In this document: positions 4,199-9,224 of the stretch, piece after piece
Position numbering within the stretch: position 1 is the stretch's first letter
How the letters are laid out: each line of letters begins with the position of its first letter
Source of the DNA: a virus
Virus record (IMG/VR): IMGVR_UViG_3300005329_000153
Location: 1-31,120 of that record
DNA length: 31,120 bases
Reading direction: 5' to 3' (one strand)
Notes under the pieces: model-generated
Told to the model about the DNA's origin: nothing
Database searches by the model: none
The model's input: the letters and a program-made list of their open reading frames with translations, nothing else
Program-made: the position numbers and the translations under genes

Positions 4199-4421
4199 TT
4201 TAGCAAGAGAACTTTTAAAGCGACGAAACAATGATATTAGATTTCTTCTTGAACTTGATCAAAAAGGTAAAGATACTTATAATATACATATTAGAATGCG
4301 AGATGATAGTGAAGAGCCTGATTGTGTAATTTCTCCGCAGGAGGCTATTAACTATTATCCTCCGGGCAATTATATTTTAGTTGAATTGGATATTTTGGAA
4401 TTAGGTTATGGAGGTGACTGA
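4185..4421 (+). CDS. 78-aa hypothetical protein
   Basis: Tandem ATGs at 4185 and 4188 are possible starts. 4185 is chosen because a GCGGG sequence lies 9 nt upstream; both starts overlap the upstream gene. The product is small and Arg/Asp/Glu-rich with a hydrophobic C-terminus and no recognised motif. Its TGA (4419-4421) overlaps the ATG of the next zinc-ribbon gene. Confidence 0.5.
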   Translation: MMSHDLARELLKRRNNDIRFLLELDQKGKDTYNIHIRMRDDSEEPDCVISPQEAINYYPPGNYILVELDILELGYGGD

Positions 4422-4543
4422 TGGCTGAAAAGACTTATTGCACTAGTTGTGGTCATGCTCGTACTTCCCATTCTAAAGAGGGATGTGTCGAATGCCCGTG
4501 CCCTGTCAAGTATATGGACAAAGATATGTTTGCTCCAAGATGA
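4421..4543 (+). CDS. 40-aa zinc-ribbon micro-protein
   Basis: ATG 4421 shares its A with the upstream TGA. The 40-residue product is dominated by metal-ligand residues: CTSCGH (about 7-12), a His at 17, then C-x2-C-x-C (residues 22-27). This is enough for one zinc site. The next gene has a GAGGAG site at 4542-4547. Comparable CxxCGHxR...H...CxxCPC peptides are found in phages, from memory. Likely a small nucleic-acid- or protein-binding zinc peptide. Confidence 0.6.
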   Translation: MAEKTYCTSCGHARTSHSKEGCVECPCPVKYMDKDMFAPR

Positions 4544-4553
4544 GGAGTAAATA

Positions 4554-4697
4554 ATGTCAAAAGAAAAGCAGCCACAGCCCCCACCGCAGCCCGTTAAATG
4601 TAGTAATTGTGGAGGTAGCGGCACGCAGATTATTCATGAGAACGGTAAAGCAAAAGCCGTTACATGTGGAGTCTGTGGCGGAAGTGGTTATGTCTAG
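4554..4697 (+). CDS. DnaJ-type CxxCxGxG zinc-finger micro-protein
   Basis: A GAGGAG site precedes ATG 4554. The 47-residue product carries two CxxCGGSG repeats (residues 16-23 and 39-46), the Cys-rich zinc-finger pattern of DnaJ/Hsp40. A Pro/Gln-rich N-terminus precedes them. There is no J domain, so it is not a chaperone partner itself; it may bind unfolded protein or simply bind zinc. Two CTGTGGC heptamers in opposite orientation lie inside the gene (4571, 4673); the second spans one of the CxxCGG repeats. Confidence 0.65.
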   Translation: MSKEKQPQPPPQPVKCSNCGGSGTQIIHENGKAKAVTCGVCGGSGYV

Positions 4698-5001
4698 AAA
4701 GACTGAAATACAATCTAAGATTGCTAATCTTCAGGCTGAGTTGAATATATTAAATCGTGTCGGAGACGACACATTTAACTTAGGAACTGTACTTGTTTTT
4801 GCGGCTAAGAACAATACAGTTCATTGGTACATCCGTAAGACAAATATTGACACTTGGATTTCAATGACTACAGTTAATCCTACTCCGATTCTATCTAAGG
4901 ATTTATTTAGTTTTATTAGTGATGCCTTAGAATCGGATATTGGATATTTTGAGGTGTACGAATTGAGGGTTCAACCTAATCCGTTTTTTACCTCGGAGTG
5001 A
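4690..5001 (+). CDS. 103-aa hypothetical protein with N-terminal coiled coil
   Basis: ATG 4690 overlaps the TAG of the zinc-finger gene. A longer frame exists upstream but overlaps that gene completely, so it is not used. Residues 3-24 form a heptad-like helix (Ile/Leu/Ala spacing). The rest looks like a beta-rich domain with a WYIRKTNIDTW stretch, similar in style to small phage proteins of unknown function. It ends 57 nt before the structured noncoding RNA. Confidence 0.6.
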   Translation: MSRKTEIQSKIANLQAELNILNRVGDDTFNLGTVLVFAAKNNTVHWYIRKTNIDTWISMTTVNPTPILSKDLFSFISDALESDIGYFEVYELRVQPNPFFTSE

Positions 5002-5057: not shown

Positions 5058-5221
5058 ACTTTGGTAGTGTCCTAATAAACAGCAGTCGCCAGTTTATTAG
5101 TTGAGGGAGCAAGCCTCGTGATTTAGGTGGGGATCTTACGAGAATAAGCCTCCCGTATCTTAGAGAGTAACAGACACTACTCAACCGCCAAAGTGTCTTA
5201 AACCTCTTTAGGGTACGGGAG
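5058..5221 (+). ncRNA. Structured noncoding RNA candidate with interlocked helices
   Basis: No good gene lies here, yet the segment is full of long perfect complementarities. They are: 5058-5064/5188-5194 (7 bp); 5065-5071/5173-5179 (7 bp); 5072-5080/5092-5100 (9 bp, 11-nt loop); 5101-5105/5180-5184 (5 bp); 5105-5109/5150-5154 (5 bp); 5115-5119/5138-5142 (5 bp); and 5150-5157/5214-5221 (8 bp). Several cross, so pseudoknots or alternative folds are implied. The order hairpin, helix, nested pair, then the 3' strand resembles the P2-P3-P4-P5 series of group I introns. However, I cannot show a P7/guanosine-binding site or splice junctions, so the class is left open. It ends 4 nt before the tRNA-like element. 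Confidence 0.5.
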
Positions 5222-5225
5222 CATT

Positions 5226-5321
5226 GAGGGTATAGTTTAATTGGGAAAACACTGATGGGTTGTATCGGAAAACACTTTGCCGACAAGTCAGTAGATGTAG
5301 GTTCGATTCCTACTACCCTCG
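5226..5321 (+). tRNA. tRNA-like element with 23-nt expanded anticodon arm
   Basis: The body is canonical: 7-bp acceptor (5226-5232 with 5314-5320), D arm GTTT/AAAC with a GG-containing loop, 5-nt variable loop, T arm GTAGG/CCTAC with a TTCGATT loop, discriminator G, and no encoded CCA. The anticodon stem CTGAT/GTCAG closes 30 nt instead of 7. That interior can itself pair (TTGT/ACAA and CGG/CCG), making a long hairpin. A 10-nt direct repeat GGAAAACACT (5244 and 5267) has a 23-nt period, exactly the excess length. The acceptor/D-arm sequence and G discriminator resemble tRNA-Trp, but no CCA anticodon loop is present, so the isotype cannot be assigned. It may be an intron-bearing, degenerate or non-decoding tRNA mimic. 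Confidence 0.6.
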
Positions 5322-5351: not shown

Positions 5352-5612
5352 ATGAATCTAAAAGTAGGAACTAAACTAAAATCAAAGCATTCTGGTAAAG
5401 TATGTACTGTTATCGATATTGATGAGAAATGGGACAGGTTTGGAGTAGAATGGGATGTAAAAACTAGGGGCTGTAAAGCTAATCATGAGATTAGTAAGGC
5501 ACATCTATACTTTACGATAGTTAAAACCCTTACTAAAGATATTGAAAGAGCAGATGAATTTTTGAGTAGGGCGAATCGGGGATTAGATGATAATTGGAGA
5601 GAATATGACTAA
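5352..5612 (+). CDS. 86-aa hypothetical protein
   Basis: ATG 5352 is preceded by AGAGGTGA. The 86-residue protein begins with a KVGTKLKSKHSGKVCTVIDID segment typical of a small SH3-like beta-barrel (compare KOW/Tudor-like 'G-x-x-V-x-x-I' strands), and ends with an acidic helix. A nucleic-acid or protein-binding barrel is plausible. It is translated between the two tRNA-type elements and overlaps the next gene by 8 nt. Confidence 0.55.
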   Translation: MNLKVGTKLKSKHSGKVCTVIDIDEKWDRFGVEWDVKTRGCKANHEISKAHLYFTIVKTLTKDIERADEFLSRANRGLDDNWREYD

Positions 5613-5850: not shown

Positions 5851-5870
5851 GCTACTATCAAGGTAGTAGC
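5851..5870 (+). other. 7-bp hairpin before tRNA-Leu
   Basis: GCTACTA (5851-5857) pairs perfectly with TAGTAGC (5864-5870), with loop TCAAGG. It lies 4 nt upstream of the tRNA 5' end, where it could mark a processing site. It lacks a long T-run, so it is not a convincing terminator. Confidence 0.4.
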
Positions 5871-5874
5871 CTTT

Positions 5875-5957
5875 GCGGATGTGGCGGAACGGCATACGCA
5901 GTTGACTTAAAATCAACCGCTCGAAAGAGCATACGGGTTCGAATCCCGTCATCCGCA
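5875..5957 (+). tRNA. tRNA-Leu(UAA)
   Basis: This is a complete class II cloverleaf: acceptor GCGGATG/CATCCGC, anticodon stem GTTGA/TCAAC with loop CTTAAAA (anticodon TAA at 5908-5910), long variable arm GCTC-GAAA-GAGC, T arm ACGGG/CCCGT with TTCGAAT, and discriminator A. CCA is not encoded. It reads UUA (and UUG by wobble), codons that this A+T-rich genome uses frequently, which fits compensation for a host poor in that tRNA. Confidence 0.95.
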
Positions 5958-8405: not shown

Positions 8406-9224
8406 ATGTATTTTAGAGAAGAAGTTATTACCCCTGCAAAAGCTAAGAAATATTTGAGCTTGAATATTCCAAATAACCGTACTACTTCTCCAATAACTAT
8501 TAGTACTTATGCTTCTGATATTAAAGAAAAACTATGGATTTCCAACAGCGGAGACAATATCAAATTTAATACTCAAGGTGAACTTATCGATGGACAGCAA
8601 CGTCTAATGGCAGTAATTGAAGCGAATACTACAGTAACAATGTGGGTAGCTTACGATGTTTCAGACGAAGCTTTACCTGTGATTGATACTGGGAGAGCTC
8701 GTACTTTTGCACATACACTTAAAATGCAGCATGCTATCAATACGCCACGTACTAGTGCAATTGTAAAGTGGATATACCTTTTCGATAAGGGTTATCCAAT
8801 GAACAAGGGAGCAGCCAAGCCCTCACATTCGCAGCTTAACATTATTTTTAAAAAATCTCCCACTGCTTTTGTTGAAGCTTCACGCAGAGCAGACGATGTT
8901 AAGCGAACTGGTATGGCCGCCAGTGGTGTGGCTGGAGTTGCTTATTATCTATTTAATAGAATTAGTCCTTCAATTACATATAATTTCTTCGACCAGTTAG
9001 TATCGGGCGCAAATGTTCCTGAGAAGAGTCCTATCCTTACTCTTAGGAATAGATTATTTAAGGTTTTGCAGGATAGACTCACATTACCAGAGGTTCTTGC
9101 CCTTTATATTAGGGCTTGGAATAATTATTTGGAAGATAAACCAGTAACTATGTTGTATTCTAATGGTACAGATAAAAAGAAGCTTAACAATTCTAATTTC
9201 CCTCAAATCAAGATGCCTAAATGA
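8406..9224 (+). CDS. ParB-like/sulfiredoxin-fold DGQQR protein
   Basis: This 272-residue protein carries the ParB-superfamily signature GELIDGQQRLMAVIEA at about residues 58-73 (DGQQR corresponds to the GNHR/DGHR box). It is followed by an all-helical C-terminal half. Such stand-alone ParB-like proteins are widespread in phages near replication genes; some bind DNA or have CTPase/nuclease activity. It is a candidate reader of the CTGTGGC repeats only by association, since the gene itself contains no heptamer. The start ATG 8406 lies immediately after the leader frame. It overlaps the next gene by ATGA. Confidence 0.75.
   Translation: MYFREEVITPAKAKKYLSLNIPNNRTTSPITISTYASDIKEKLWISNSGDNIKFNTQGELIDGQQRLMAVIEANTTVTMWVAYDVSDEALPVIDTGRARTFAHTLKMQHAINTPRTSAIVKWIYLFDKGYPMNKGAAKPSHSQLNIIFKKSPTAFVEASRRADDVKRTGMAASGVAGVAYYLFNRISPSITYNFFDQLVSGANVPEKSPILTLRNRLFKVLQDRLTLPEVLALYIRAWNNYLEDKPVTMLYSNGTDKKKLNNSNFPQIKMPK

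Follow-up and report, generated by a model that had tools for sequence, protein, structure and literature searches.

The window analysed here is a 31-kb virus record (31,120 nucleotides). As the original prediction of a gene-free stretch had it, no plus-strand open reading frame lies between the stop of the upstream frame at 5001 and the start of the next at 5352; this segment carries several hairpins and a tRNA-like element, with a normal tRNA gene further downstream (Table 1). Relatives were collected by way of the adjacent helicase gene and then the primase, and the gene order round the site is common to them. The close relatives are L002/L017 (one phage record), L003, L004, L005 and L022, the close clade being six phages only, and L055-L068 are more distant. 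No relatives were found in the bacterial genomes searched, and the nearest named relatives of the phage family infect actinobacteria. Just 5′ of the conserved gene at 4690-5001, two open reading frames (4421-4543 and 4554-4697) encode tiny Cys-rich, probably zinc-binding proteins of 40 and 47 aa; the 47-aa protein shows a weak likeness to the DnaJ zinc-finger domain (E 0.001), which is below the family cut-off.

Table 1. Features of the structured leader, the tRNA-like element and the nearby tRNA gene (window coordinates; the perfect helices are given as they are present in the sequence).
Feature	Position	Strand	Description
Leader 5′ part	5058-5109	+	hairpin 1 (5072-5080/5092-5100), then GTTGAGGGAG at 5100-5109
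Crossing-set helix	5058-5064/5188-5194		7 bp
Crossing-set helix	5064-5071/5173-5180		8 bp
Hairpin 1 helix	5072-5080/5092-5100		9 bp
Crossing-set helix	5100-5105/5180-5185		6 bp
Hairpin 2	5115-5142	+	stem CTCGTGA/TTACGAG, loop TTTAGGTGGGGATC
Hairpin 2 helix	5115-5121/5136-5142		7 bp; 5115/5138 in the original prediction
Hairpin B	5150-5221	+	18-bp stem 5150-5167/5204-5221, 36-nt loop
Hairpin B helix part	5150-5157/5214-5221		8 bp, inside the 18-bp helix with G.U
tRNA-like element	5226-5321	+	acceptor 5226-5232/5314-5320, D arm, T arm; 32-nt insert, no normal anticodon loop
Second example hairpin	5851-5870	+	GCTACTAT/GTAGTAGC; ends 4 nt before tRNA-Leu(UAA)
tRNA-Leu (anticodon TAA)	5875-5957	+	normal tRNA

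The tRNA-like element matches the full Rfam tRNA model (positions 1-71) with 52.8 bits in an Infernal search, which bears out the earlier placing of a structured RNA beside such an element; ARAGORN did not call it at 5226-5321. The acceptor arm, the D arm and the T arm with its loop are canonical. No CCA is encoded, and an anticodon loop of 7 nt carrying U33 and a conserved anticodon is missing. The anticodon loop is 32 nt long in the window and 8 nt long in L005 and reads UUAGGAU in L004, and L017 has an extended anticodon stem (CTCAATACT/AGTATTGAG). The anticodon arm thus differs among phages, and the element is probably not a decoder. In order to read it as a decoding tRNA after all, a small anticodon-loop intron would have to be removed by some other route. 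The inserts of the window and of L017 do occupy the expected anticodon-loop position, but no hand-made placement recovers a 7-nt loop containing U33, and the insert-free relatives have unrelated loops (the 8-nt loop and UUAGGAU), which leaves this reading very improbable. In L003, a possible degenerate tRNA-like element was seen by eye at 8854-8990, with a T arm (ACAGGTTCGATTCCTGT), a 5-bp acceptor and about 90 nt with two hairpins instead of the D and anticodon arms; this candidate has no Rfam tRNA match.

The RNA of 5058-5221 folds more stably than its shuffled versions (z -2.9). Perfect helices of 7 bp or longer number five, compared with an expectation of 0.78, and only 3 of 1000 shuffles contain as many. 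The helices listed in the original prediction are present where it put them or a few bases off. The main component of the nested fold is hairpin B, whose 3′ edge lies 4 nt before the tRNA-like element and whose loop could form an inner hairpin (5172-5178/5192-5198). In L017, L004 and L005, both a long hairpin directly before the tRNA-like element and the element itself are found at the equivalent place. Across four phages, 14 of the 18 hairpin B pairs show two-sided change and 95.8% of the cells are paired, far above the slid controls, none of which comes near, although the arms were positioned by hand and the counts are thus biased somewhat in favour of the hairpin. A search of viral contigs with the hairpin B pattern returned two true relatives and two chance matches inside a coding gene. 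For hairpin 2, which lies at the equivalent place in the leaders of L017, L003, L005 and L022, all six tested pairs show two-sided change in at least one of five phages. The compensatory changes therefore favour the nested hairpins 2 and B and lend no support to a pseudoknot.

The crossing helices behind the predicted pseudoknot do exist as strings, but 5058-5064/5188-5194, 5065-5071/5173-5179 and 5101-5105/5180-5184 were not found in L017, L003, L005 or L022. They could still represent a real lineage-specific pseudoknot (5058-5071 with 5173-5194, and GTTGAG with CTCAAC) that serves as a regulatory RNA or ribozyme. The shape of a bulged helix plus a pseudoknot was matched in only 3 of 3000 shuffles, although it is one shape among many that a reader could pick. 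Most crossing helices avoid the bases of the hairpin B stem, so coexistence is possible, and in L017 a 7-bp pairing joins the hairpin 2 loop with the hairpin B loop (p 0.03). In contrast, the fold with 5058-5071/5173-5194 forced (P1) reaches -47.0 compared to -60.6 for the nested fold, a penalty of about 14 kcal/mol with any pseudoknot bonus excluded, and for pairing between the hairpin B loop and the RNA upstream the duplex-energy p is 0.16 in the window and 0.29-0.36 in L005 and L004. We consider such a pseudoknot improbable. A new ribozyme, as had been suggested, fares no better, since the Rfam search returned tRNA alone, with no match of the window structure to the HDV-like family, and the crossing helices were not found in those four relatives.

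The helix order had also been taken to echo a group I intron core. The crossing helices can be mapped onto such a core if it is circularly permuted, with the order P7′-P9-P3-P4-P5-P7-P3′-P8 writable onto the window, and the target of such a core would be the insert that the tRNA-like element carries in its anticodon arm. Over 14 nt, the hairpin B loop (5186-5199) and the insert (5269-5282) show 86% complementarity, but this pairing is not significant by duplex energy (p 0.15). In addition, J8/7 is lacking (5058-5064 and 5064-5071 are contiguous), as is J7/3 (5173-5180 and 5180-5185 overlap), a C-C stands at the expected P7 pair, no splice or exon junctions can be placed, and covariation of the core is absent. 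The Infernal search against Rfam showed nothing except tRNA above the cut-off, and even with E values of up to 10 allowed no group I model matched; a pattern search of viral contigs for an S/P3-like motif gave no match, and the core was not found in L017 despite its tRNA insert. On the missing joining segments, the lack of an Rfam match and the lack of conservation, the permuted group I core was rejected, and we regard it as scarcely credible. Taken together, these results show that the helices are real as strings but do not make up a single pseudoknotted group-I-like RNA, and that the 9-bp helix of hairpin 1 and the 8-bp helix within hairpin B are ordinary nested hairpins.

The 5′ hairpins form a module of their own. 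Hairpin 1 has counterparts of at least 7 bp at the equivalent position in L017 (AGATATA/TATATCT) and L022 (TCTATAA/TTATAGA). The sequence that follows it is letter-identical in L017 and is able to pair with CUUUGG (5059-5064) in a weak, G.U-rich lower helix. The GGUGGG of the hairpin 2 loop is invariant in five of the six close phages. In 725 kb scanned on both strands, GGTGGG occurs 107 times, of which 10 lie in a comparable hairpin and 5 at the hairpin 2 site; a search with the hairpin 2 model R2 returned its five training members and no others. At L022 4354-4460, a two-hairpin GGUGGG leader was seen directly 5′ of a short gene with a Shine-Dalgarno-like sequence, with no tRNA-like element. 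Since L022 has the module without that element, hairpins 1 and 2 must have another role, and our guess is a protein-binding or translation-control site. A quite unlikely extension is that a non-decoding tRNA-like RNA, with its anticodon arm as a free insertion site, is released together with the GGUGGG hairpin module as a stable regulatory RNA, which in the window could be held by pairing of the hairpin B loop with upstream or tRNA-insert sequence. Kissing of that loop with upstream RNA or the tRNA insert was tried and set aside, as it is not significant except, weakly, in L017.

Hairpin B appears to be one case of a wider rule. For 29 tRNA or tRNA-like genes in 15 phages, we measured the best uninterrupted helix ending 0-6 nt from the tRNA end. 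Within 6 nt on the 5′ side, 18 of the 29 genes have such a helix with 9 or more Watson-Crick pairs, and on the 3′ side only 3 do; at random positions, helices of this length occur at 1.4%, and those of 13 pairs at 0.03%. Ten of the 5′ helices have 13-16 Watson-Crick pairs (G.U allowed between) and loops of 3-92 nt. Examples are L058 (13 Watson-Crick pairs closing 92 nt), L063 (13, or 15 with G.U, closing 76), L065 (14 and 13), L068 (14), L067 (15) and, in the annotated phage MW202795, a helix of 15 pairs that stops 3 nt short of the tRNA-Leu. The helix sequences and loops differ, so what is kept is the position and the pairing rather than the sequence. No such helix was found at L059 Arg, L063 Gln, L068 Gln, L087 Ile and Arg, or L088 Glu, and in phages with at least two tRNAs the remaining tRNAs often go without it. 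The leading gene of the T4 tRNA cluster, tRNA-Gln, likewise has a helix of 9 bp that reaches the tRNA 5′ end. These sequence comparisons support a family rule, of which hairpin B is an instance, that a long helix precedes the tRNA and leaves 0-5 nt up to its 5′ end; this regularity, that a long 5′ helix tends to adjoin tRNA genes in this phage family, takes the place of the ribozyme guess. Possible crossing helices were also seen in two tRNA-Leu leaders, CTAGC/GCTAG with ACTTGAAT/ATTCAAGT at L022 5438-5528 and ATTAATGG/CCATTAAT with GTGGTT/AACCAC at L059 8900-9045.

The anatomy of the site is well supported from sequence; this covers the hairpins with their covariation and position, as well as the lack of a constant anticodon arm. 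We propose that a chain of hairpins, with the long one directly before the tRNA-like gene, an arrangement also present in related phages, probably governs release of the tRNA-like RNA from a longer transcript. Of the options named in the original prediction, a processed partner of the tRNA-like element is the best fit. Specifically, 5058-5221 would be the untranslated leader of the tRNA-like gene within a long phage transcript, with one module of leader hairpins (5058-5142) and another formed by the long hairpin (5150-5221) that adjoins the element. RNase P would cut at 5225/5226. Because the tRNA-like element retains what RNase P recognises and has lost a constant anticodon arm, it would act as a cutting signal rather than a decoding tRNA. 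After the cut, hairpin B would become the 3′ end of the upstream RNA and could shield it against 3′ exonucleases; by delaying RNase P, it could in addition leave some transcripts uncut for long enough to be translated. We give this account, in which RNase P punctuates the transcript and the hairpin caps its end or slows the cut, an even chance.

The published behaviour of leader stem-loops bears on the second of these roles. RNase P acts about tenfold more slowly when a stem-loop lies 2 nt upstream of the pre-tRNA, and in E. coli valVW leader stem-loops set the processing order (PMC10731613). Since a proximal leader stem-loop inhibits RNase P, the hairpin may work as a brake no less than as a cap. 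On this comparison, a brake would fit the published inhibition better than a plain processing aid; the cap and brake readings are mutually compatible. The stem-loops of bacterial pre-tRNA 5′ leaders such as valVW are likewise stable, lie a few nucleotides from the RNase P site and there alter processing (PMC10731613), whereas the phage-family case concerns isolated tRNAs between protein genes, with helices of at most 18 bp and structured loops of at most 92 nt. Among open-access publications on permuted group I introns of phages, on the leaders of phage tRNAs and on how T4 tRNAs are processed, none settles the mechanism. If the helix caps the RNA or delays RNase P, the phage could keep tRNAs in protein operons with the mRNA not wrecked, and a kept tRNA fold with a lost anticodon arm would clearly exemplify a tRNA that serves as a processing signal.

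The main rival is that RNase III cuts the long helix before the tRNA and so opens the leader ahead of RNase P. Several of the phages have helices of 13-18 bp, and RNase III has a part in the 5′ processing of the T4 tRNA cluster. However, several helices have only 8-11 bp (the tRNA-Leu of the window, L017, L004, L005 and L003), which is short for RNase III and weakens this explanation, and helix lengths range widely; we hold it to be possible though unlikely.

Several known systems are comparable in part. In MALAT1/mascRNA, which is eukaryotic, RNase P is directed by a tRNA-like element to set where the upstream RNA ends on its 3′ side, and a triple helix protects that end; its likeness to the punctuation proposed for the window is an analogy only. 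Theta ribozymes, which are HDV-like, adjoin the 3′ end of phage tRNAs and have their cleavage site there (PMC10879173). They are also structured RNAs next to a phage tRNA, but the window structure lies 5′ of the tRNA-like element. T4 species 1 RNA (rnaC), a stable phage RNA from the tRNA cluster, has a T arm (CCGGGTTCGAATCCCGG) but nothing that can be recognised as an anticodon arm, and it is perhaps a similar anticodon-less tRNA-like RNA. It has no Rfam tRNA match, whereas the window element has one, and the likeness is not based on sequence relation. At L099 (T4) 1409-1547, rnaC is annotated as a small stable RNA (species 1 RNA) and ends in a canonical T arm.
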